From: Rhizobium sullae
GTDB lineage: Bacteria > Pseudomonadota > Alphaproteobacteria > Rhizobiales > Rhizobiaceae
Direction of reading: 5' to 3'
Length of the DNA: 64,000 nt
Assembly: GCF_025200715.1 (NCBI RefSeq)
Contig: NZ_CP104143.1
Location: forward strand, 2,232,001-2,296,000
Positions 1 through 14,285 of this stretch are shown in pieces; position 1 is the first letter of the stretch, and every line of letters begins with the position of its first letter. The position numbers and the translations under genes were made by a program. The notes below the pieces were generated by a model. The model was given only the letters and a program-made list of their open reading frames with translations, had not been told where the DNA came from and ran no database searches.

Positions 1-25
1 CGCTGCTCGCCGGTGTGACCGGCCG

Positions 26-1435
26 ATGACAGTCTTCCCATTACGTTTCAGGCCATCTCGATCCGGCGACTTGCTCTTTGCCGACGACGCAGGCACCTAC
101 TTCAAATCCGACAATGACTTTCTCACGCGCTACGCGCTCGGTCGCCTGACCGCAGAAGATAAATTTTTCTTGAACCACAACGGCCATGCCTTTGAGGAAG
201 TTGGTGATCTCGCATACGCGGGGTTCGAGCACAGGTTTGCAAGCCGTCTCTACACCCCTGGCCAGCTGGACTACGTGATCCTCGTCCCCACACTACGCTG
301 CAACCTCGCTTGCGGTTATTGTCAGGTCTCACGGGTCAACGAAAACACATCCGGATTTGACTGGGATGAGCCGACGCTAGACGCAGGCATTCGCTTTTTG
401 AACGGATTGTCTACCCGAAAAATCAAGATCGAGTTTCAGGGCGGTGAGCCTACGCTGCGGCTCGATGTGCTCGACAGGGTTCGCGACTTTTGTCTGACGA
501 AGTTCGAAACCTGCGAGTTCGTCGTTTGTACGAACCTGCAGGATATGAGCGAAGACGCTTGGCGGTTCTTGGAATTGCCGGACGTATTCGTCAGCACGTC
601 ACTTGACGGTGATATGTTCACGCACGAAAGTCAGAGGACTTTCAGCCCCGATAAAACCCAGGCGTTCTCATCGAACCTTCATCGCGCTCTTGAACAGTTG
701 GGCAGTGACAAGGTGTCCGCGTTGCCGACGATCAATCCACATCGTCCACCGCCAACGCGATCTGTGATCGAAACCTACGCGTCCCTTGGAATGCGATCGA
801 TCTATTTGCGGCCCATAAATTTTCAGGGGTTTGCTCGTAAGAAGTTCGACGCGGCGGCGGCGGCCGAGGTCTGGAACGTCTATCATTCGGCATTTATCGA
901 CGACCTCATCGAGTACAACTGGACAGCTAACCTCGCTGTGGAGGAATACTATTTCGTCCACTGTCTTCGCCGGGTCCTGAGGTCAGGACACAACGGGCAC
1001 GTAGACCTCAGAAATCCGAACATCGTTGGTCACGGATACCTCGTCGTCGACTACGACGGCAAATTTTACCCAACGGATGAAGCGAGGATGGTCACCCGCG
1101 TCGGCCAGTTTGATCTATCCATGGGCAACGTCTTCGACGGGATTGAGCGAACGACTATCGATACGTTGAACTCGGAAGCTCTAAACAATTATCACCCAGA
1201 CTGCCTGCACTGCCCTTATCAGCCATTCTGCGGCGTCGACCTCATCGACGATCTCTCCCGCTATGGCCGGATCGATATGCCAAAGCACCTAACTGACTTC
1301 TGTCAGCGGCATACGCATATCTTCGATAAAATTTTCTCAATGATCTACTCCGACGATCCGAAGGTCAGGAAATCCATGGCAATCTGGGCTGGTGTTCCTC
1401 ACTTCGATGAGGCTCTGGCAAGGTGGCATCGATGA
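26..1435 (+). CDS. hxsB: His-Xaa-Ser system radical SAM maturase HxsB
   Basis: Radical SAM enzyme of the His-Xaa-Ser (Hxs) system, expected to modify the HxsA repeat protein with HxsC. The 469-residue protein carries the SAM-cluster motif CNLACGYC at residues 92-99 (CX3CX2C), a glycine-rich FQGGEPTLR segment about 50 residues later, and a C-terminal auxiliary cluster motif CLHCPYQPFC typical of SPASM-type maturases. The start ATG lies just downstream of TGA codons at 16-18 and 27-29, one of which probably ends hxsD outside the window. Its stop overlaps the hxsC start (ATGA at 1432). The reaction on HxsA is not known; the assignment rests on the motifs and on the hxsB-hxsC-hxsA order. Confidence 0.9.
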   Translation: MTVFPLRFRPSRSGDLLFADDAGTYFKSDNDFLTRYALGRLTAEDKFFLNHNGHAFEEVGDLAYAGFEHRFASRLYTPGQLDYVILVPTLRCNLACGYCQVSRVNENTSGFDWDEPTLDAGIRFLNGLSTRKIKIEFQGGEPTLRLDVLDRVRDFCLTKFETCEFVVCTNLQDMSEDAWRFLELPDVFVSTSLDGDMFTHESQRTFSPDKTQAFSSNLHRALEQLGSDKVSALPTINPHRPPPTRSVIETYASLGMRSIYLRPINFQGFARKKFDAAAAAEVWNVYHSAFIDDLIEYNWTANLAVEEYYFVHCLRRVLRSGHNGHVDLRNPNIVGHGYLVVDYDGKFYPTDEARMVTRVGQFDLSMGNVFDGIERTTIDTLNSEALNNYHPDCLHCPYQPFCGVDLIDDLSRYGRIDMPKHLTDFCQRHTHIFDKIFSMIYSDDPKVRKSMAIWAGVPHFDEALARWHR

Positions 1436-2520
1436 TCAATCTCCGGGTCAAAATCGATCCCCTACCGTTGGACGAGCCCATCGTGGTTCGGCTGCGCAAT
1501 TCACTTTCCAACACCCCGTCCGAGGCCGACGCGATCCTGATCGCTCGCGATGATGGTCGCCTGGAATATGACTTCCACGGCTTTTCCCTTGTGATCCATC
1601 CGGCAGAGCCCGAAGAGTACGACGGCGACGTCATCCTTGTCTTGCCTGGTCAAGCGACCGCGCACAGGCTGATCCGCGCTTCGTCGCAGCACAATACCTT
1701 CCTCGTCACCGAACAATGTGACCAGCTCTGCGTTATGTGCTCCCAGCCGCCAAAGCGGCATCATACGGACCTGTTCAGTCAATTTGCTGAAGCAGCCTTG
1801 CTTTCACCCAAGGGAGCAGTGATCGGAATCTCAGGCGGAGAGCCCCTTCTCCATAAGGATCGGCTCTTCGAGATGTTGCGCACCGTGACCGCTGCGCGAC
1901 CGGACGTGACCTTCCACATCTTGACCAATGGGCAGCACTTTGAGGCATCCGACGTCGCTGAGCTGTTGGAAATCGGAACAAGTCGCATCTTGTGGGGTGT
2001 GCCCCTTTATTCCGCCCACGCGGACACGCACGATAAAATCGTCGGTAAGGCTGGTGCATTCAGACGGCTTGAGAGGGGGCTTGGCATCTTGATGCGCTGC
2101 GGGGCGTCCGTCGAACTGCGGACAGTAGTGATGCGACAGAACGCTTCGGACCTTGCCGACCTAGCAGATTTCGTCTTCACCCGTTTGAGTTTCGTCCACG
2201 TTTGGGCTCTGATGCAAATGGAACGCATCGGCTATGGCCGGATGAACTGGACCAAGTCGTTTTTCGATACATCCTCTGACTTTCTGCCAGTTGCGACGGC
2301 TATCGATCGAAGCGTGGCCCGAGGCACATCGGTTGCATTGTATAATTTCCCGCTTTGTTCGGTCCCACCTGAGTATCGCCCTTACGCTCCTTCAACCATC
2401 TCTGATTGGAAACGGAAGTATCTCGATTTTTGCTCGGGGTGTGGCTCTCGCGCAGCTTGTGGTGGTTTTTTCGAATGGTATAGTCACAACGAGGGGTTCG
2501 CTGGGCTAGGTTCAATATGA
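1432..2520 (+). CDS. hxsC: His-Xaa-Ser system radical SAM maturase HxsC
   Basis: Second radical SAM enzyme of the Hxs system, 362 residues from the ATG at 1432. This start was chosen because it overlaps the hxsB stop as ATGA; a GTG nine bases upstream is possible. The cluster motif is CDQLCVMC (Cys96, Cys100, Cys103), followed by the SGGEPLL motif and a C-terminal CSGCGSRAAC cluster. The first ~90 residues form an N-terminal domain ahead of the TIM barrel. The gene overlaps hxsA by four bases (2517-2520), so translation of maturases and substrate is probably coupled. Two distinct radical SAM proteins acting on one repeat substrate is characteristic of this family. Confidence 0.9.
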   Translation: MINLRVKIDPLPLDEPIVVRLRNSLSNTPSEADAILIARDDGRLEYDFHGFSLVIHPAEPEEYDGDVILVLPGQATAHRLIRASSQHNTFLVTEQCDQLCVMCSQPPKRHHTDLFSQFAEAALLSPKGAVIGISGGEPLLHKDRLFEMLRTVTAARPDVTFHILTNGQHFEASDVAELLEIGTSRILWGVPLYSAHADTHDKIVGKAGAFRRLERGLGILMRCGASVELRTVVMRQNASDLADLADFVFTRLSFVHVWALMQMERIGYGRMNWTKSFFDTSSDFLPVATAIDRSVARGTSVALYNFPLCSVPPEYRPYAPSTISDWKRKYLDFCSGCGSRAACGGFFEWYSHNEGFAGLGSI

Positions 2521-3134
2521 AAAAGAGGCTGTTTTTAATTCCGTCGTTTTTTGCGGCGGGCTTCCTGCCGTCGAAGGCAGATGCAATGCTTCCAGGCGAC
2601 CTCGTCGCAAAGCCAAATCCGGTGCCGTCGGTGCTTGAGCGACTGAAGCTCAAACATATCTACACGCTAGCTGGCCACCGTTCCCATAGTTCCCATCGAT
2701 CGCATTCGAGCCATCGTTCGAGCAGCGGCGGGGGATACAGCTATCGAACGTATAGCTCGCCGACCTACACACGTCCCTCGACCGTTTACACTGCACCAAC
2801 GTACACCGCGCCTGCTCCGACCTACATGCCACCCGCCCCGGCTCCCGCTCCTGCTCCGGCAGCACGGACGCCTGCCTATGCGGTTGCACCGGCTGCACCG
2901 GCACTAGCAGCACCTTTAAAGACCTTACCCGGCAACAGCGAGAAGTTCACCCGCATCGTGATGCGGGTGCAGACGGCGCTGACCGCTTATGGCTATTACT
3001 CCGGTCTGATCGACGGAAAGGTTGGTCCAGCCTGCAAGACCGCGCTACTCGCCATGCAGACAGACTATCGCCTGCGGGCGACGGGGACGATCACCCCCGA
3101 GGTTCTGGACGCCTTCGGTATCGCCGCGAACTAA
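2517..3134 (+). CDS. hxsA: His-Xaa-Ser repeat protein HxsA (putative maturase substrate)
   Basis: Secreted protein of 205 residues and likely target of HxsB/HxsC. Residues 1-23 form a signal peptide ending in SKADA. Residues 54-68 are five uninterrupted His-Xaa-Ser triplets (HRS, HSS, HRS, HSS, HRS), followed by a Ser/Gly/Tyr patch. Residues ~85-130 are a low-complexity Pro/Ala/Thr/Tyr linker. Residues ~140-205 resemble a peptidoglycan-binding domain (VQTALTAYGYYSG, IDGKVGPACKTAL). This suggests a modified peptide tethered to the cell wall; the modification itself is unknown. The start overlaps the hxsC stop and the VWA gene follows after 24 bases. Confidence 0.88.
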   Translation: MKKRLFLIPSFFAAGFLPSKADAMLPGDLVAKPNPVPSVLERLKLKHIYTLAGHRSHSSHRSHSSHRSSSGGGYSYRTYSSPTYTRPSTVYTAPTYTAPAPTYMPPAPAPAPAPAARTPAYAVAPAAPALAAPLKTLPGNSEKFTRIVMRVQTALTAYGYYSGLIDGKVGPACKTALLAMQTDYRLRATGTITPEVLDAFGIAAN

Positions 3135-3158
3135 TCATTTCCATCAACGAGGTTCCCA

Positions 3159-3839
3159 ATGACCAATCCTTTCGAGCAGCAGCCATTTGAAGGTGCCGAA
3201 TTCGTTGACAATCCGGAACCGCGCTGCCCGTGCCTCCTGCTACTTGACGTTTCCGGCTCAATGAACGGGAAGCCGATCCGAGAACTGAACGATGGCCTCG
3301 TTCAGTTCAAAGATGAGCTTTTTGCTGACGCTCTGGCAGCAAAGCGCGTTGAGGTCGGGGTGGTCACCTTCGGCCCGGTAAGCATCGTCAACGATTTCCA
3401 GAGCGTTCAGAACTGGTATGCGCCGAACCTTGAATCGCACGGTGACACGCCCATGGGTGCCGCGATCGAGCAAGGCTTGCAGCTGCTCCGTGATCGCAAA
3501 AACCAGTATCGTCAGAATGGCATCTCCTACTACCGTCCCTGGGTATTCCTCATCACCGACGGTGGCCCGACCGACGCTTGGAAGAATGCCGCGAGTCTTG
3601 TGAAAGCCGGTGAAGCTGAAAAGGCCTTCTCCTTCTTTGCGGTTGGTGTCGAAGGCGCGAATATGGAGGTGCTTTCACAGATCAGCACCCGTGCGCCGCT
3701 CGCCTTGAAGGAACTCCGCTTCCGCGATTTGTTCTCTTGGCTGTCCAGCTCCCTCAGCTCGGTTTCCCAATCGAACCCCGGCGATGCAGTTCCGCTGTCG
3801 AACCCGGCAACGCCGGATGGGTGGGCCTCTATTTCATGA
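3159..3839 (+). CDS. TerY-like von Willebrand factor A domain protein
   Basis: Cytoplasmic VWA protein of 226 residues that spans a single VWA fold. The metal-ion site is intact: DVSGS at residues 30-34, a central Thr in GDTPMG, and the ITDGGPTD loop. Short Pro-containing tails flank the domain. It is the first member of a VWA-phosphatase-kinase triad (TerY-P type; the E. coli yegL-yegK-yegI genes are similar). In such modules the VWA protein is thought to bind partners or be the phosphorylation target. An AACGAGG ribosome site precedes the ATG. The stop overlaps the phosphatase start as ATGA at 3836. Confidence 0.88.
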
Positions 3840-4606
3840 ATGGCACATGGCGATGGGCGGGAGCCCGTTCGATCGGCACGTCCCACATAAAGAAAAATGC
3901 GCCGTGCCAGGACTACGCCTGCGCAAAAGAGTTTCTCACAGGCGACGGCTCGGTAATGGTAGCTGTCGTTTCCGACGGTGCCGGAAGCGCCTCTTTGGCG
4001 GAATTTGGCTCTCGCACCGTCTGCATCGCCTTTCTCAAGGCCTGCCGCCAGTTTCTCGTTCGATCCTCGCTCGCAGAGCTGGACGAGGATGTCGTGTGGG
4101 ATTGGATCGACACAGTGCGGGAAGCCATCAATCACAAAGCCAAAGCTGCTGAGGCTCGGCCGCGAGATTTTGCTGCGACGCTGGTTGCGGTACTTGTTGG
4201 AGATCGGGCGTCGGTCGTCATTCATATTGGCGATGGAGCCGCAGTAATCCGGCGCTCAGCTTCAGAAGAATGGGAGGTCCCGTCCTGGCCCTATCAGGGC
4301 GAATATGCATCTACCACATCGTTTGTGACCGACGATCCCCAGCCTCGCCTTGAGGTCGTGGTGGTCGAAGGACAAATCGCGGAGTTTGCAGTCTTCTCAG
4401 ACGGCATAGAGCGTCTCGTCCTCGATCACATAGCCAAGACCGCCCATGGCCCTTTCTTCAATCGAATGCTCGCGCCCCTGAAACTGTCCTCGGCCCGCTC
4501 CGTCGATAAGGAGCTTTCCAACGCGCTTCGGGCGTACCTCGACAGCCCAAATGTTTGTGAACGGACCGACGATGACAAATCTTTGATCCTGGGGCTTCGA
4601 ACGTGA
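3836..4606 (+). CDS. PP2C-family Ser/Thr protein phosphatase
   Basis: Metal-dependent protein phosphatase of 256 residues, probably reversing phosphorylation by the downstream kinase. PP2C motifs appear in order: SDGAGSA near residue 44, GDGAAVI near residue 130, FSDGIERL near residue 187, and DDKSLIL close to the C-terminus, giving the acidic metal ligands. The ATG at 3836 was chosen because it overlaps the VWA stop; an in-frame ATG about 100 bases upstream would run deep into the VWA gene. The end overlaps the next gene's GTG start by four bases (GTGA at 4603). No signal peptide or membrane segment is visible. Confidence 0.88.
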
Positions 4607-6513
4607 CTACGGTAATTTCCTCTGATGGCCGCCGATTGACGCTGGGCGCGACGTTGGGCAAGGGTGGTGAAGGCGCGGTCCATCACATCGCTGAAACCGC
4701 AGACCTCGCTGCGAAAATCTACAATCCAGGCAAGGCGAAAGACAGGCGCGATAAGGTAACTGCGATGGTGGCAGACCGGCTGCATGTCCGGTCCGATTAT
4801 GTCGCCTTCCCTATCGATACCCTCAAGTCACCATCCGGTGAGTTTCTGGGTTTCACAATGAAAAAAGTCGCCGGGTATAAGAGTGTCCACGACCTCTACG
4901 GTCCTGGCAGCCGAAAGACCGAGTTCCCAACGGCGGACTCGCAGTTCCTTTTGCGGTCGGCGATCAACTTGGCCAGTGCGGTCGCCAGCATCCATGCGAC
5001 CGGGTGCGTAATCGGGGATATCAATCATTCGGGCATCCTTGTCAGTAACAAGGCGCTGGTCACACTCATCGACAGCGACTCCTTCCAGTACCGTTCTGGA
5101 TCGACAACATATAGGTCGCTTGTCGGCGTAGCAGAATATACCCCGCCTGAATTGCAGGGGGCGTCTTTCGACAAGGTGGATCGCACGCCAAACCATGACA
5201 ACTTCGGTCTCGCTGTCCTGCTCTTCCAGCTTCTATTCCTTGGTCGCCATCCCTATGCTGGCAGGTACCTGGGCAAAGGCGACATGGACATCAAGACGGC
5301 GATAGGCGGTGGGCGCTTTGCCTACAGCTCACGCAAGTCGGAAACCATGATGGAGCCGCCGCCCTTTGTGCCAGGTCTTGGCGATTACGGTGACGACATC
5401 CGCAGAGCATTCGAGGCAGCCTTCATGCCGCCTGCCCGACAACCTGGAGGTCGGCCCGCTGCCGCTGACTGGGTGAGACTACTCAAGAACGCCGAAGCGA
5501 TCTTGGCAATCTGCACAGTAGACAAATCCCACGCGTATAAGCGAGATGTTGGGGCTTGCCCTTGGTGCAAGCTTGAGCACTCAATGGGCAGGTCCCTGTT
5601 CCCAGCCCAGTTCTCTCCGACTGCTCCGATCATGGACATCGGGCAGCTCCTGACCGCTATCAAAACAATGCCAGCTCCACCTTCTCCGCCTAACCCGGAG
5701 TCGGCGTTGGGTCCGCTTCCCCAACTCGCCATGTCTTCGGCAGGAAGAGGTGCTCGCAGCGAACGAAATCTAACCGTGCTCGCTGGTCTTGGGGCGATCG
5801 TAGTGGGGCTTTATCTTATGTCGCAGGTCAGCGGCTTCTGGGGTCTCGCCTTGGTAATAGGCGCGGGTATCGTTGCCGCAAGATCGCTCGACCTGAAAGC
5901 AAAGTTTGCCACCGAGCATAACAATGCCAAATCGGGCTGGGAGGAACAGAAGAAAATATGGCTTAGCAAGGCAGGGCCAGAAACATTCGAAGCACGGCGT
6001 AGCCATTATCTGTCCCTTGCGAACGCTCACTCGGCCCTGCCCACCAAAGAACGGGAAAAACTCGCTGCGCTGGAGCAGAAGAAGAGGCAGCTGCAGCTTG
6101 AAAAGCACATGGACTCGCACCTTGTCGACCGGGCCAAAATCCCGCGCATTGGCCAGGGACGAAAAGCAACGCTTGCGTCTTATGGTTTCGAAAGCGCGTT
6201 GGATGTTCGGCAAAGGTCTGTGACGGGCGTGCCCGGCTTTGGCCCGTCACTTGCTAGTGACATCGAGGCATGGGCGCGATCTGTTGAACGCAAATTCGTG
6301 TTCAATGCATCGATACCGACAGACCCACAAGCCGTTCAGGCGGTCAAATCCGAGATTGCCAAGCAGAGAGCTGAAATTGAACGTGAGCTGTTGAAGGCTC
6401 CGGTCGACTTAAAGCAGATCGCTGACGCCGCCTCAGCACTTCGCGTCAAGCCGCCGCAGCAACTTGTCGATGCTTACACACGCCTCAAACAAGTCGAGTT
6501 GGACATCGGTTAG
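4603..6513 (+). CDS. Protein kinase with zinc-ribbon, membrane segment and helix-hairpin-helix
   Basis: Multidomain kinase of 636 residues, third member of the triad and similar in layout to YegI-type kinases. Residues ~12-300 are a kinase fold: glycine-rich LGKGGEGAV, Lys38 in AAKIY, catalytic-loop Asp139 in GDINHSG, and a DSD metal-binding motif at 157-159 in place of DFG. Residue 144, normally Asn in the catalytic loop, is Gly. A CPWC half zinc ribbon sits near residue 320, a hydrophobic membrane stretch around 388-425, a charged helical segment, and helix-hairpin-helix sequence (ALDVRQRSVTGVPGFGPS) around 525-560. GTG is the start, overlapping the phosphatase stop. Confidence 0.85.
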   Translation: MTTVISSDGRRLTLGATLGKGGEGAVHHIAETADLAAKIYNPGKAKDRRDKVTAMVADRLHVRSDYVAFPIDTLKSPSGEFLGFTMKKVAGYKSVHDLYGPGSRKTEFPTADSQFLLRSAINLASAVASIHATGCVIGDINHSGILVSNKALVTLIDSDSFQYRSGSTTYRSLVGVAEYTPPELQGASFDKVDRTPNHDNFGLAVLLFQLLFLGRHPYAGRYLGKGDMDIKTAIGGGRFAYSSRKSETMMEPPPFVPGLGDYGDDIRRAFEAAFMPPARQPGGRPAAADWVRLLKNAEAILAICTVDKSHAYKRDVGACPWCKLEHSMGRSLFPAQFSPTAPIMDIGQLLTAIKTMPAPPSPPNPESALGPLPQLAMSSAGRGARSERNLTVLAGLGAIVVGLYLMSQVSGFWGLALVIGAGIVAARSLDLKAKFATEHNNAKSGWEEQKKIWLSKAGPETFEARRSHYLSLANAHSALPTKEREKLAALEQKKRQLQLEKHMDSHLVDRAKIPRIGQGRKATLASYGFESALDVRQRSVTGVPGFGPSLASDIEAWARSVERKFVFNASIPTDPQAVQAVKSEIAKQRAEIERELLKAPVDLKQIADAASALRVKPPQQLVDAYTRLKQVELDIG

Positions 6514-6521
6514 GGGGACGA

Positions 6522-7229
6522 GTGTCTACATCTTATAAGGGCTTCTGGATAATTATCGGCATGACTGTCGGCGCAGTCGTCATCGCGCAGTCGACGGCGA
6601 AGCCTCGCCACTCGTCGAACTTCGGTCGTTCGGGTTACAGCGAGTCTGGCAGCGCGAAGTCTGTTTTTCCGAGTTCTTCGTCCCCGCAGTCATCAACAAC
6701 AGCATCCACCCCAATCACGCCCGAGCCAACCGGAACCACCCTCTCCCCGTCGGCTAGTCAGCCTGAGGAAAACCTTTCAGTTTCGGCCGATCCGTCAAAA
6801 TCCGCCGTTGAGACACGATCGATCGAGCCCGATTTTCAAGCGGCCTTCGACAAGGCAATGGAAATCTCCCTTGCTGTTCCCCCTGCCGTGAAGACACAGA
6901 TTTTAAACGAACCCGCATCTTCTTCGGAACCATTTCTGCCGCCCTTGGAAAGAAAAGAGGTTTCTTCGTCGCCTAGAATATTCGATGAACCGCCGCCGGT
7001 CGCCTCAAGTGACGAAAATAATATCCCCGCTTCCGTCGAGCCGTTCGTGACGACGACCGACCTCAACCTGCGCGAGGGTCCTGCACCTGCCTATCTGAAA
7101 ATCGAAACCCTTGGAAAAGGGAGCGGACTGACGGTATTGGAAAGACAAGGGAAGTGGTGGCGTGTGAAGTCCGCCGCCTCCGGCGCGGAAGGTTGGATCA
7201 ACGGGACCTTCGTAAAGCCGAAAACTTGA
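6522..7229 (+). CDS. Membrane-anchored SH3-domain protein
   Basis: Hypothetical protein of 235 residues with GTG start preceded by a GGGGGACGA ribosome site, eight bases after the kinase stop. Residues ~6-24 are a single N-terminal membrane segment. Residues 30-165 are low-complexity Ser/Thr/Pro/Glu linker. Residues ~173-233 form a bacterial SH3 domain (DLNLREGP, KWWRVKSAASGAEGWI, final FVKP). The topology suggests a periplasmic SH3 domain on a long stalk, binding wall material or a peptide. Its position at the end of the hxs/triad block, together with the wall-binding domain of HxsA, suggests both exported proteins act at the envelope (inference). Confidence 0.75.
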   Translation: MSTSYKGFWIIIGMTVGAVVIAQSTAKPRHSSNFGRSGYSESGSAKSVFPSSSSPQSSTTASTPITPEPTGTTLSPSASQPEENLSVSADPSKSAVETRSIEPDFQAAFDKAMEISLAVPPAVKTQILNEPASSSEPFLPPLERKEVSSSPRIFDEPPPVASSDENNIPASVEPFVTTTDLNLREGPAPAYLKIETLGKGSGLTVLERQGKWWRVKSAASGAEGWINGTFVKPKT

Positions 7230-10432: not shown

Positions 10433-11482
10433 GTGAGTTCTAAACCCACCCGTCAGGAGGTTCGACCTTTAAAGACCAGACACGTATTTCTCGATACCGA
10501 GGTGTATAGGCGGGCAGGATACAACGTCCGCAACAGCCAGTTCAAAGTCTTTGGAGATTATATCCTCGCAGGGAAGCTTGTCCTTCACACGACAGACATC
10601 ACGTACGCTGAAGTCAGCCGCCAAATTATGGAATTGGTTTCGGAACGCGCCGCGCGGTTGAAGAAGATTGCCCATGACTTTCAACGCATGTCCCAATTGA
10701 GCAATGCCTTTCCCAAGCTTTCGGAAGTCGATGAGAAGGAGTTGGGCCAGTCTCTCTGGAAAGCGTTCCTCGACGTCATTATCAACGACTTCAACGCCAA
10801 CCACATTTTGGCGCAGCAGATACCTGTTCGCAGGATTTTCGAGAAGTATTTCGCTGGCGCTGCCCCATTCGCAAAACGAGGCAGTAAGGAATTCCCGGAC
10901 GCATTTATGGTAGAGGCGCTTGCGGATTTCTGCGCCGAAAACTCCGCAAGAATGTATGTCATCTCAGGGGATGCGCAGCTCCGTTCCGCCGCAGGATCGC
11001 ACCCCGCGCTGATCCCTTTAGGTTCCATTGATGACCTTTTGGCGTCGTGCGCTGCCGAAAGTGACATTGATCTGGAGCCCTTAGTAGACCAGCTTTTTGA
11101 GCATCCTGGATTCGATGATCAGCTATTTGAGGTCTTGTCTAACGAAGCGCCTTATCTTGAAGGCCTCTATTTCGGCGATCTAACAGACGGGAGCGTAAAG
11201 GACATCTGGCTTGATGAGATTTTGGCGGTTGACGGTTATACTCTCGCGGCAGTCGATGACATCTTCGTTTCTCTCATTCTCGATGTACCATGCGTCCTAC
11301 AAGCGTCGGTAGACTATATTTACGAAGACCCCGACGTCGAAGAGGGCGACGCTCAGTATGTGACGACCGCAACAGACTCGATAAGTGGGAATGTGCATCT
11401 CAAGGTTTACTTACGCATCGACACCTCAACCGCACGGTTTGTCGAGAAAGAGCTTCTGACAAAACGTGCAATTTTCCAATGA
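10433..11482 (+). CDS. PIN-domain protein
   Basis: Protein of 349 residues with GTG start after a CAGGAGCGAG ribosome site. The N-terminal ~190 residues look like a PIN nuclease: VFLDTEVY (first acidic pair), YAEVSRQI, FPDAFMVEAL and VISGDAQLR provide the expected Asp/Glu metal ligands in order. The remaining ~150 residues are an acidic C-terminal domain of unknown role. This is larger than VapC toxins, and no antitoxin gene is next to it, so it is more likely a stand-alone RNA/DNA nuclease of the DUF4935 type (tentative) than a classical toxin. Confidence 0.7.
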   Translation: MSSKPTRQEVRPLKTRHVFLDTEVYRRAGYNVRNSQFKVFGDYILAGKLVLHTTDITYAEVSRQIMELVSERAARLKKIAHDFQRMSQLSNAFPKLSEVDEKELGQSLWKAFLDVIINDFNANHILAQQIPVRRIFEKYFAGAAPFAKRGSKEFPDAFMVEALADFCAENSARMYVISGDAQLRSAAGSHPALIPLGSIDDLLASCAAESDIDLEPLVDQLFEHPGFDDQLFEVLSNEAPYLEGLYFGDLTDGSVKDIWLDEILAVDGYTLAAVDDIFVSLILDVPCVLQASVDYIYEDPDVEEGDAQYVTTATDSISGNVHLKVYLRIDTSTARFVEKELLTKRAIFQ

Positions 11483-11768
11483 CGATGTCATCCGGAACAA
11501 GTGTAGTCGCTCCGTCGATTTGGGCGATGGGCTCCTACGCGAAAAAAATGTCAACGCCTTTGAACATGCGACGTCGCTTCTCAAAACGGAGCATGATGCG
11601 GTCCCATCGTTTCCTACGGCAGTCGTATCGACGATAATAAGTGCGGTAAGAAGTATTGTACCACGTCAATCGTCCACTCTTCCGACCGCTGCATGGGTAT
11701 CCTATGTCAGCGGGACGACGTTTCGATCCGGCGTAGGCGCGATGGCGTGGGCATTCGACTTTTTATGA
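11466..11768 (+). CDS. Hypothetical small protein (doubtful)
   Basis: An open frame of 100 codons beginning with GTG inside the last 17 bases of the PIN gene. It contains FEHATSLLKTEHDAVPSFP, which looks protein-like, and ends in AMAWAFDFL. There is no ribosome site of note and no recognised family. It may be a translationally coupled partner of the PIN protein or a chance frame. Otherwise the ~400 bases between the PIN gene and the DUF5131 gene hold nothing clear. Confidence 0.3.
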   Translation: MQFSNDDVIRNKCSRSVDLGDGLLREKNVNAFEHATSLLKTEHDAVPSFPTAVVSTIISAVRSIVPRQSSTLPTAAWVSYVSGTTFRSGVGAMAWAFDFL

Positions 11769-11883
11769 TCAGAGCCGCCTCTAGCATCCATCCTCGTGTG
11801 CCACCACGTTCCAACATGAGTGAGCCTTTTTATCAGTTTGTTTACCAAACGCGGTACAATGCCAAACATTCTGGAGCTGGGCG

Positions 11884-12633
11884 ATGGCCGACACAACTAT
11901 CGAATGGACGGATGCAACGTGGAACCCGGTGGCAGGTTGCACGATCATGAGCGCTGGCTGCACCAACTGTTATGCTATGAGGATGGCAGCACGCCTGGAG
12001 GCAATGGGCGTTGAGAAGTATCGAAGTCTGACGCGGAAAACAGGCGGTCGCGCGAAATGGACGGGGGCGCTTTACCTCGATGAGAACGCTCTCCGAATCC
12101 CGACGACCTGGTCTAGGCCCAGGAACGTCTTCGTCAACTCCATGTCGGACCTTTTCCATCCGGATGTGCCGGTCGACTTCATCGGCAAAGTTTGGTCGGT
12201 GATGGCGGAGACACCCCGCCACACCTATCAAATTCTGACGAAGCGACCTGATCGGATGGCTGCTATACTGCAAAATGATTTCGAGGTGCTGCCGAATGTC
12301 TGGCTCGGCGCGAGTGTTGAGGACGGCAGGGTGATCCATCGTCTCGACGAGCTACGCGAAGTCCCTGCGGAGGTCCGTTTCGTATCGTTCGAGCCGCTCA
12401 TCGGCTCAGTCTTCTCAGGGAGTCTTAAAGGAATTCATTGGGCCATCGTCGGAGGTGAATCAGGTCCGCAGGCTCGCCCCATGGACCGTGCTTGGATCGA
12501 CGAAATCTTCGACATGTGCACCGATGCTGACACTGCCTTCTTCTTTAAGCAGTGGGGCGGCTACAACAAGAAGAAGACCGGCCGATCATATCGAGGACGC
12601 ACCTGGGACAATATGCCCGCTGTCGCAGCCTAA
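11884..12633 (+). CDS. DUF5131 (phage Gp37/Gp68-like) three-Cys protein
   Basis: Protein of 249 residues of the DUF5131 family, often named after phage Gp37/Gp68. It begins with a conserved IEWTDATWNPVAGC block and three cysteines, Cys19, Cys26 and Cys29 (CX6CX2C), a spacing that suggests an iron-sulphur cluster of a radical-SAM-like fold. Later conserved stretches are VFVNSMSDLFH, YQILTKRPDRM, WLGASVED and VGGESGP. The biochemical role is unknown. Families of this kind pair with TcmP, which is encoded on the opposite strand with a four-base overlap of stops. The ribosome site is GGAGCTGGGCG. Confidence 0.85.
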   Translation: MADTTIEWTDATWNPVAGCTIMSAGCTNCYAMRMAARLEAMGVEKYRSLTRKTGGRAKWTGALYLDENALRIPTTWSRPRNVFVNSMSDLFHPDVPVDFIGKVWSVMAETPRHTYQILTKRPDRMAAILQNDFEVLPNVWLGASVEDGRVIHRLDELREVPAEVRFVSFEPLIGSVFSGSLKGIHWAIVGGESGPQARPMDRAWIDEIFDMCTDADTAFFFKQWGGYNKKKTGRSYRGRTWDNMPAVAA

Positions 12634-13778
12634 GACCGCTCGATCTTATCGGTGTCGTCAGGCTTACGCCGCCTGGACCCATTCATGCGCCAGGTTTCCT
12701 TGATTTCTCCGGCCTTCCCTAGCTCTACACATATGTCTCTAGCGTCGGTTTTTCTGAGCATAAAATTATCAAGCATTGGCGGCCAGATATCGGAAAATGG
12801 CTTCGGACAGCTTGGCAATTGTTGGCGAAGCCAGTCCTTCGCTTGGACCTTGATGCTCGCAATTTGAGTTTCCATCGAGTCTTCCGCTAGAGAAGCCGCT
12901 CCCTCAGCCCCGAACAGATCGGTCTGCCCCGTCTTGCTTTCCCTGATAACCTCGCGAGCTGCTGCGCGGCGCATACCGTGATCCTTGAGAGCCGCATATT
13001 CGACATCGCGATAGGCCGCCAGCCCCTCAGGGCTGCGCGTTCCGTACACAATGTGAAAGTGCGTGCGATCAGATATCTTCTCAATCGGGGTGCTGAGAAC
13101 GTGTGCGAATTTGCCAGCTTTCCAAAACTGTTCATTGAAAAGGCCCATCAAGGCCTCTTCACGCGGCACCAACGGGTTGAGCCGTGCTTTCCAGTTTGGA
13201 CCAAGGATACCCTCGAATGAGGCGAGCGTCTTAGGGTCTGAAGAGGCCGTGAACCGGTTGACGAAGTCAAACATGAAGTTAAGCAACACTTCACCAGGCG
13301 CATGTTCGAAAACCGGTCTGACCTTATTGAACTCGTATCCGGTCCAGCCGGTCGGATCGATGAACGTCAGAGCGAAGGCGTTAGAAATGGTCCGTCGGAT
13401 TTGGGGCAGCGTATTCTCGAACTTGCCATTGAAGGTCTCGACAAAGAAATCGTTCGCTGGGTCGTGATGGGCAGTCACCACCGGATGAAGCTGAGCGAAC
13501 GACGCAGCGTTCTCTTCAATGAAAAGGCATTTGACGCGAGGTTTTTTTCCTGACGCCCGCACCTTGGCCTGGGCATCCTTCAGCACTTCGATTGCGATCA
13601 TGAAAGAGGAGTCAGAATGGTCCGGCGTCTTTGACTGCCATGGTCCTGAAAAGCCGTCGATATAAGCAAGGGTGCTCCAACCGCCGTGTAAGGTTTTGAA
13701 TGCCAATGTCTGCAGATATTTCCGCAAGATGAAATGCTTGGCTTCTGTCTGCTCTCTATGATGATAGACGCCCGTCAT
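12630..13778 (-). CDS. tcmP: Three-Cys-motif partner protein TcmP
   Basis: Protein of 382 residues from the ATG at 13778 (a GTG at 13808 would add ten residues). It starts YHHREQTEAKHFILRKYL, the recognisable TcmP N-terminus, followed by LAYIDGFSGPW and later LTFIDPTGWTGYEF, resembling a methyltransferase-like nucleotide-binding fold. TcmP genes are found next to three-Cys DUF5131-type genes; here the partner is convergent and the two stops overlap at 12630-12633. The function of the pair is not established. The ATG start is favoured because family members begin just before the REQT motif. Confidence 0.8.
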   Translation of the reverse strand: MTGVYHHREQTEAKHFILRKYLQTLAFKTLHGGWSTLAYIDGFSGPWQSKTPDHSDSSFMIAIEVLKDAQAKVRASGKKPRVKCLFIEENAASFAQLHPVVTAHHDPANDFFVETFNGKFENTLPQIRRTISNAFALTFIDPTGWTGYEFNKVRPVFEHAPGEVLLNFMFDFVNRFTASSDPKTLASFEGILGPNWKARLNPLVPREEALMGLFNEQFWKAGKFAHVLSTPIEKISDRTHFHIVYGTRSPEGLAAYRDVEYAALKDHGMRRAAAREVIRESKTGQTDLFGAEGAASLAEDSMETQIASIKVQAKDWLRQQLPSCPKPFSDIWPPMLDNFMLRKTDARDICVELGKAGEIKETWRMNGSRRRKPDDTDKIERS

Positions 13779-14285
13779 GCGAAGATGACTCCCAGCTGGT
13801 GTTATCACAACCTATGACTGGACAATGATTCCGCCAATACATCTCACGGTATCCACGCTTGTTTTATCAATATTTCTTGGAAAAACTGCTCGTCAGTGCT
13901 CAGGCTTGAAAATATAGGTTATTCCTACATGACGGATTGGAAAGCCTGAGTGAGAAGCAGGCATGTCTTGGCTGTTGCCAGTTTGCCCAAATCAACAACT
14001 GAAGAAAGGTTTACGCCATCAACGGTCCAGCGCCAAATATCAAGATATCGATCAAGCTGCTTGAAAACCTCGATGGGCTCGCCCTTAGAACCAAACTGCG
14101 TGGACACCTGCTTTGCGACCGGACGCTGTTAAGTAGACTTCCCCTAATGATCTTGGCCACTATTCGATTTTCACGAGTTGAATGAAACGTCCGGTCTTCC
14201 CATCAGTTTCGTTTGACCGGTTGCAATTACCTCGCGACATTTGCATCTATCATTCATGACGTGAATTGCTTGATGGAGCCAACCC
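13779..14285. other. Intergenic region, about 500 bases, with one doubtful small frame
   Basis: Between tcmP and the MBL-fold gene. A minus-strand frame at 13925-14107 (GTG start, 60 residues, containing FKQLDRYLDIWRWTVDG) reads like protein but has no recognised family, and might be a gene remnant. The rest is AT-richer sequence likely to hold the divergent promoters for tcmP and the MBL gene. Confidence 0.35.

Follow-up and report, generated by a model that had tools for sequence, protein, structure and literature searches.

A rhizobial Hxs radical SAM operon linked to a YegL-PphC-YegI-like kinase triad

The His-Xaa-Ser (Hxs) radical SAM system is reportedly the subject of work by Haft and Basu. 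At the start of a stretch of 64,000 nucleotides from Rhizobium sullae (contig NZ_CP104143.1, positions 2,232,001 to 2,296,000 of the forward strand; hereafter the window), we found an Hxs system that carries a switch of the YegL-PphC-YegI type, made of a VWA protein, a PP2C phosphatase and a membrane kinase, a combination that may be new. Judging from their spacing, the genes are packed as one operon, and sequence comparisons support the linkage between Hxs and the triad well; the way in which the two would cooperate is what we infer. With about even confidence, we propose that the locus is a composite, mobile rhizobial operon, in the order 370-amino-acid protein, hxsD, hxsB, hxsC, hxsA, yegL, pphC, yegI and SH3 gene, in which the triad would be a switch working with Hxs at the envelope. 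The rhizobial genes probably modify a cell-wall-binding repeat protein, HxsA, and the two systems may work together. A preliminary description of this DNA, made from its letters, knew of no account of the combined Hxs and kinase-triad system, and the literature that we searched, the coverage of which left out most subscription papers, held none either.

The operon and the identity of its parts

Window 26-7229 is a single run of seven genes on the same strand (+), encoding HxsB, HxsC, HxsA, the VWA protein, the PP2C phosphatase, the membrane kinase and an SH3 protein. HxsB, HxsC and HxsA exceed NCBIfam equivalog cut-offs, and the VWA, PP2C_2, Pkinase, SH3_3 and PG_binding_1 matches exceed those of Pfam. 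The radical SAM/SPASM maturase encoded by hxsB (26-1435) reaches 408 bits against TIGR03978 (cut-off 370), with the CxxxCxxC motif at residues 92-99; the second radical SAM maturase, encoded by hxsC (1432-2520), has the same CxxxCxxC motif and reaches 320 bits against TIGR03977 (cut-off 268), the ATG at 1432 being taken as its start within a longest open reading frame that begins at GTG 1423; and hxsA (2517-3134) encodes a repeat protein with a HRSHSSHRSHSSHRS stretch, which reaches 167 bits against TIGR03979 (cut-off 122). The three identities given in the preliminary description are thus all above the NCBIfam cut-offs. HxsA ends in a peptidoglycan-binding domain (PG_binding_1, expectation value (E) 1.5e-11), and its start looks like a signal peptide by eye, the hydropathy scan having not flagged it. 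The hxsD that had been suggested for the DNA upstream of position 26 has a candidate in an 80-amino-acid hxsD-like gene (+ strand, L002:9787-10029, L002 being a stretch that extends upstream of the window), the first 214 bases of which precede the window and the 3' end of which lies at window 1-29, with an ATGA overlap on hxsB. Its homologues occupy the same position in related loci. The protein has no NCBIfam (TIGR03976) or Pfam match, a Klebsiella HxsD being one that does match TIGR03976, and the membership of the locus in the Hxs family therefore rests on HxsB, HxsC and HxsA.

The triad follows with the VWA gene (3159-3839, +; metal-binding DxSxS motif at residue 30), the PP2C gene (3836-4606, +; PP2C_2, E 1e-44) and the gene of a kinase-like membrane protein (4603-6513, +), which combines a Pfam Pkinase domain with a hydrophobic region at about residues 388-431 (by hydropathy), a helix-hairpin-helix region and a coiled coil. 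The last gene (6522-7229, +) encodes a protein with a C-terminal SH3_3 domain (E 6e-10) and an N-terminal hydrophobic anchor as seen by hydropathy. The window VWA protein is 61% identical to YegL of Escherichia coli K-12 over 220 aligned columns, while the phosphatase and the kinase are, nearly over their full lengths, 34% identical to PphC and 33% identical to YegI, so that near full-length similarity of the three proteins and their order both point to a YegL-PphC-YegI triad. Against plasmid proteins annotated as TerY-C, the VWA protein shows about 30% identity over 69% of its length (among the best 50 of 2,326 records), and the TerY-C model is absent from its Pfam matches up to E 0.1. From these direct E. 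coli matches, as opposed to about 30% to TerY-C proteins, YegL-PphC-YegI is the precise name and TerY-P the wider kin: the triad announced by the preliminary description is present, but its TerY-P label gives way to another. The TerY-P triad of the ter operon is ruled out as an identity, the VWA protein and the kinase being YegL-like and YegI-like. A sequence search of solved structures with HxsB, the phosphatase and the kinase gave no match. According to the accessible part of PMC13232886, YegI is a membrane Ser/Thr kinase that is dephosphorylated by PphC, and earlier work had defined no condition promoting YegI/PphC expression.

The seven genes are joined by four-base overlaps at 1432, 2517, 3836 and 4603 and by gaps of 24 bases (3135-3158) and 8 bases (6514-6521), as the preliminary description had them. 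It had also named a terminator or promoter between 3100 and 3160 as what might part the two halves; simple consensus scans found no such site there, and sites over the 8 kb scanned were fewer than the mean of shuffled sequences. Since the gap between hxsA and the VWA gene is only 20-51 bases in nine loci (the window, L044, L045, L047, L050, L158, L159, L161 and L169), there is little room for separate control of the triad.

Recurrence, linkage and descent

When one genome per species was scanned using a window-like HxsB profile, 113 loci were confirmed, of which the best 80 were compared (69 distinct at 98% HxsB identity). Among the 69, the full triad occurs in six, the C-terminal half of the kinase (C-half) without the rest in one, and neither in 62, within the stretch fetched; for the 56 with ample flank, these numbers are six, one and 49. 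The triad is thus an optional partner of Hxs rather than a part of its core, and a universal part of Hxs it cannot be. The window order is intact in nine loci (the window, L044, L045, L047, L050, L159, L161, L168 and L169) and broken in L158; it extends to other Rhizobium, Sinorhizobium and R. rhizogenes, and to plasmid records of S. meliloti, S. terangae and R. rhizogenes, and on a plasmid of Rhizobium sp. T136 hxsC and the phosphatase and kinase genes are broken. Three other arrangements bring the same modules together. In the R. tropici group, the triad is convergent and faces hxsA from the opposite strand (L051-L054 and L163, with the SH3 gene; four more plasmids by their gene tables). In genome G010, of a different family, it precedes hxsD on that gene's strand, separated from it by one other gene (L043). 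In a Sphingomonas (L121), a MauG-like gene comes before it, and its start lies about 2.5 kb downstream of hxsA. Because the arrangement recurs in other genomes, it is not due to chance; neighbours brought together by accident in one genome, the outcome on which the preliminary description would have been abandoned, are ruled out by this wide recurrence.

Of the plasmid records listed, fifteen carry a kinase at least 56% identical to that of the window (one is partial) and 26 carry a C-half at 52-58% identity. For 40 of these 41, the record also includes hxsB, as an HxsB match or by annotation; in the exception, CCGE532, hxsC and hxsA are present and an IS256 element takes the place of the continuation of hxsB. 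These figures come from the best 60 of 74 matches for the kinase and the best 40 and 60 of 429 for HxsB, with gene order inspected in 14 of the 41 records, and there is redundancy in the set (just two identity values, 58.0 and 57.3%, account for 22 of the 26 C-half records).

Other genome surveys took no Hxs locus as their starting point. Among 394 Rhizobiaceae genomes, the kinase (E<=1e-30) was found in nine, window-like HxsB (E<=1e-60) in 13 and both in four (p 8e-5), with the kinase and HxsB genes at most 5 kb apart in all four; one of the four has the C-half only, and counting full triads alone leaves three shared of 8 and 13 (p 0.0014). The order was represented by 397 genomes, 14 of them with the kinase (E<=1e-20) and 12 with HxsB over cut-off; two genomes share them, and the genes are adjacent in both. 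Neither an Hxs gene nor an SH3 gene matched our profiles in the stretch fetched around the remaining 12 kinase loci, and no SH3 gene was matched behind their kinase, the contig ending at most 610 bases behind it in three (L146, L153 and L155). Several loci represent the same genome in two collections (G751 is S. terangae, G560 is L047, G612 is L060 and G385 is L058), so the surveys are not independent. The six loci of the model-central HxsB type that have their genes in order (L033-L038), several of which are truncated by a contig end, showed no triad in the fetched stretch. A survey of the phylum gave a TIGR03979 match in 20 of 398 genomes, 13 of them over the cut-off, namely nine new loci (L226-L234), G000 (the genome of the window), G105 and G301, all three already examined, and G187; the nine new loci have no triad in the fetched stretch. 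None of three HxsB matches in phage records covers 80% of HxsB, and seven HxsB relatives on viral contigs came without a match to any triad protein.

In ten linked loci, HxsB distances correlate with those of the kinase (r 0.91), the phosphatase (0.85), the VWA protein (0.83) and the SH3 protein (0.95), with a permutation p of 0.0002 for each. Such correlated distances speak, within these sequences, for joint inheritance of Hxs and triad, and not for interaction. In a kinase tree that includes the unlinked kinase of genome G688, the 12 Hxs-linked Rhizobiaceae rows group together at 91/90, short of the star given by the program, with G688 as their sister; leaving out the G688 row gives the group its star. 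The linked kinases of G010 and Sphingomonas fall among unlinked ones, the Sphingomonas row being a long branch of unsure exact place, and the starred branches of the kinase trees require the Hxs linkage label to have changed at least three times, which may correspond to one gain and two losses. As read from these trees and gene orders, Hxs and triad are inherited together, with a linkage that was changed or rearranged several times.

A stand-alone gene for the C-half of the kinase (in the window, 5632-6513 on the + strand, from Met344) adjoins hxsA on Agrobacterium plasmids and in Rhizobium sp. Y9 and Rhizobium sp. PP-CC-3A-592. Two lineages have no VWA protein, phosphatase or catalytic kinase half and keep the membrane and helix-hairpin-helix half, with the SH3 gene, beside hxsA. 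In four Agrobacterium-type rows, the start of the stand-alone protein matches Met344 of the full-length kinase, and the Agrobacterium gene begins 5-6 bases after hxsA; in L060 and its duplicate L197, the protein is 332 amino acids long and its start is unrelated. On trees of HxsB and of the C-half, these two forms occupy separate places, a pattern suggesting that the catalytic part was lost twice, separately. The C-half has a ratio of nonsynonymous to synonymous substitution rates (dN/dS) of 0.11-0.21 in five pairs, against 0.04-0.15 for HxsB, dS being saturated in two of the five. Among 37 C-half relatives found by a search, 19 are 292-294 amino acids long, the others being shorter pieces or longer kinases. 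A model of the separate Agrobacterium C-half (pLDDT 86.7, pTM 0.57) is almost all-helical: its residues 36-114 form a helical hairpin, and besides long helices there are short ones in the helix-hairpin-helix region; a PDB fold search with it returned nothing at E<=0.001. The SH3 gene, for its part, persists beside Hxs where there is no triad, in L046, L056-L059 and L162, while the SH3 of L086 is a domain-only match. In the full-length gene of the window, the Met344 codon (5632) could serve as an internal start yielding the C-half, no strong ribosome site being evident by eye.

A candidate switch at the envelope, and its rivals

Most likely, the triad is a recruited switch that acts at the envelope on modified HxsA, or responds to it. 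HxsB and HxsC would modify the His-Xaa-Ser stretch of HxsA in the cytoplasm, and HxsA would then be exported and held at the peptidoglycan through its C-terminal domain. The YegI-like kinase, given its predicted hydrophobic region, would be anchored in the inner membrane and have its two termini in the cytoplasm; the phosphatase would reverse its action, and the VWA protein would be a metal-dependent adaptor. Outside, the anchored SH3 protein and the 370-amino-acid protein would work with HxsA at the envelope. The membrane half, with SH3, outlasts the catalytic triad in some loci, which suggests that this half is in contact with the Hxs side and that control is added by kinase, phosphatase and VWA protein: membrane half and SH3 would be the part most closely tied to HxsA, and the catalytic triad a switch added or lost. 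Such a switch might either set Hxs activity or relay the state of HxsA inward, the sequence giving no direction. The preliminary description is partly supported overall, in that the block is real and recurrent, the name of its triad is corrected, and the control by the kinase over export, maturation or response to HxsA that it proposed stays conditional and without direction.

A more specific proposal, which we put forward as unlikely, is that the modified, wall-held HxsA is the natural signal or client of the YegI-type kinase, with the membrane and helix-hairpin-helix half and the SH3 protein as its receptor and YegL-PphC-YegI as the relay by phosphorylation. If true, it would provide the orphan kinase-phosphatase triad, which ranges from rhizobia to E. 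coli, with a first defined pathway, and a radical-SAM-modified wall protein with a first signalling role. More generally, Hxs and YegL-PphC-YegI are both without known purpose, and their repeated linkage gives each a candidate partner. The forms that nature has already dissected (the full triad, the membrane half alone, SH3 alone, or a MauG-like partner in their stead) indicate which pieces to delete or swap first, and the presence of the operon in strains of S. meliloti, a well-studied species, opens the question to ordinary genetics.

Several observations weigh against a working partnership. Most Hxs loci, by the counts given above, do without the triad, and E. coli K-12 carries the triad in a control genome with no HxsB over cut-off and no HxsA match, so that neither system needs the other. 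The overlap at the level of the order is weak when taken alone (p 0.016 with the six window-like Hxs genomes, or 0.062 with all 12). The G688 kinase, 58% identical and sister to the linked clade, comes from a genome without window-like HxsB at E<=1e-60; the starred branches alone force only one change and would allow the C-half form to have arisen once; genes that remain linked should show correlated distances in any case; the membrane layout of the kinase rests on hydropathy; and the location of the block, on plasmids or in a stretch of low GC, is of a kind in which unrelated modules accumulate.

The alternative that survives best, and which we consider unlikely, draws on several of these points. 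It holds that Hxs and the triad are passive neighbours, independent accessory modules that came to adjoin each other on a plasmid of rhizobia and were then passed on jointly, through descent and transfer: many of the records are plasmid-borne, some loci contain transposases and other accessory genes, and each system is found without the other, the triad in E. coli and Hxs in most of its loci. Mere co-travel fits less well with at least three linkage changes, several gene orders and overlapping reading frames, with an SH3 gene that follows the kinase in Hxs loci of Rhizobiaceae and was not seen there in the triad loci without Hxs that were examined (contig ends truncating some of these), and with the survival of SH3 and the kinase C-half next to hxsA after the loss of the remainder.

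A switch working with Hxs at the envelope must also be weighed against a direct chemical role of the kinase, which we think distinctly improbable. Here, the kinase would phosphorylate the His-Xaa-Ser serines of HxsA before export, as a maturation step or a timing mark, and the phosphatase would remove the phosphate, in the manner of the kinase domain of class IV lanthipeptide synthetases. The same operon does encode a Ser-rich target, and the best NCBIfam match of the kinase is the LanL kinase region, at E 1.5e-6, which is far below cut-off and covers a partial kinase region only. However, E. coli YegI gives the same LanL match, which is therefore a general kinase signal, and triad-free loci keep the same HSS repeats in their HxsA. 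As for a class IV lanthipeptide synthetase as such, Pfam shows a kinase only, without lyase or cyclase.

Equally hard to favour is a TerY-P type of defence against phages, in which modified HxsA would be the envelope effector. A TerY-P triad protects against T7-like phages, according to the accessible part of PMC7699616; some neighbouring genes look defence-like; the PD-T4-6 kinase models of PADLOC match our kinase weakly (E 7e-8); and HxsB and HxsC weakly match prokaryotic viperin models, in each case as members of broad superfamilies would. On the other hand, the VWA protein is YegL-like and has no PADLOC match, the phosphatase has none below E 0.03, and the defence version is described with an OB-fold in what is available of PMC11090510, whereas the C-half, as modelled from its Agrobacterium relative, is almost all-helical, and the Pfam matches of the window operon include no OB-fold. 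Least probable of all is a transcriptional or DNA-linked regulator of hxs, acting through the helix-hairpin-helix domain with no part for the envelope: JGI names six of the 37 relatives 'DNA-binding helix-hairpin-helix protein with protein kinase domain', and the C-half keeps this region, but it keeps the hydrophobic region too and its operon partners look secreted or anchored.

Genomic setting and comparison with known systems

The slot after hxsA is filled by alternative modules, the triad among them, because a MauG-like pair, a protein of about 386 amino acids and the triad each occur there. In 19 of the 80 loci, all among L061-L122, the genes directly after hxsA, in its direction, encode a small TIGR03982-like protein (our marker D408) and a MauG-like protein, the latter counted separately and present in the same 19 loci; in the copy tested (L070, 13339-14959), the pair passes the TIGR03982 and TIGR03981 cut-offs, both named Hxs-associated by NCBI. 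One locus carries both the full triad and the MauG-like partner. The company of a di-haem oxidase and two radical SAM maturases in these loci is a hint that HxsA may contain a protein-derived cofactor made by oxidation. In ten of the 80 loci (L051-L059 and L094; for example L052:13113-14297), a secreted-looking protein of about 386 amino acids comes directly after hxsA; one copy tested had no Pfam or NCBIfam match, and by eye its N-terminal region resembles periplasmic proteases of the ClpP/SppA type.

At the other end of the operon, a gene for a 370-amino-acid protein with a hydrophobic, secretion-like start (L002:8579-9691) ends 309 bases before the window. A gene of about this length is the first of the operon in Rhizobiaceae with either Hxs and kinase or Hxs and C-half, and its relatives hold the same place. 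The protein has no Pfam match above cut-off and no NCBIfam match, and a PDB fold search with its weak model (pLDDT 61.5) found nothing at E<=0.001; a protein search with the L060 copy gave 22 further clusters, the named ones from Rhizobium or Agrobacterium. The G+C content is 0.52-0.58 over window 1-24000 and L002:2001-10000, against 0.56-0.67 further along the window, and by its composition the operon sits in an island-like stretch. Two Ku genes lie upstream of it (L002:5457-7181). Downstream, an accessory cluster (10433-13808) comprises a PIN-domain gene, a DUF5131 gene and, on the opposite strand, a gene for a 392-amino-acid protein without Pfam match, which we take to resemble three-Cys-motif partner proteins.

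Elsewhere, Hxs genes are seen in other settings. Klebsiella accounts for 318 of the 429 plasmid records that match HxsB, at about 28% identity among the matches listed, and one record of this type (L170) has hxsDBCA in a conjugative IncF plasmid near transposon and resistance genes, with no triad in the 13 kb fetched. In G187, of the same genus, L235 (G187:C32:19500-39400) holds a broken hxsA and no hxsB or hxsC match in the stretch, by which the Hxs system is also in the course of loss.

Four known systems invite comparison. The vWA-FtsH ternary conflict systems likewise unite a VWA protein, a radical SAM enzyme and a peptide partner in one locus, but in the accessible part of PMC7159879 they are described within vWA-MoxR/FtsH chaperone-type systems, with no kinase-phosphatase pair. 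The TerY-P triad of ter operons, CoCoNuT and defence loci resembles ours, as far as the available text of PMC11090510 goes, in the order VWA, PP2C, kinase and in a Cys/His cluster after the kinase domain; comparison with its zinc ribbon points to the C-x5-H-x8-CPWC motif of the window kinase, a putative metal site that is found in all 21 kinases checked (the window and two duplicates included), whereas no Ter or restriction family is among the Pfam matches of the window operon. To the Hxs system, for which the Haft and Basu work is cited in the accessible part of PMC9062424, the locus belongs by HxsB, HxsC and HxsA, which pass the curated cut-offs of the TIGR03976-TIGR03979 set, and by its order D-B-C-A; it departs from it by an HxsD-like protein too divergent for TIGR03976, and by a triad and SH3 gene that replace the TIGR03982 and MauG-like (TIGR03981) pair. 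Finally, yegL-pphC-yegI of E. coli K-12 has the gene order of the window triad, except for yegJ between pphC and yegI, and no hxs or SH3 gene stands alongside it in the 13 kb fetched, whereas the window triad has both.

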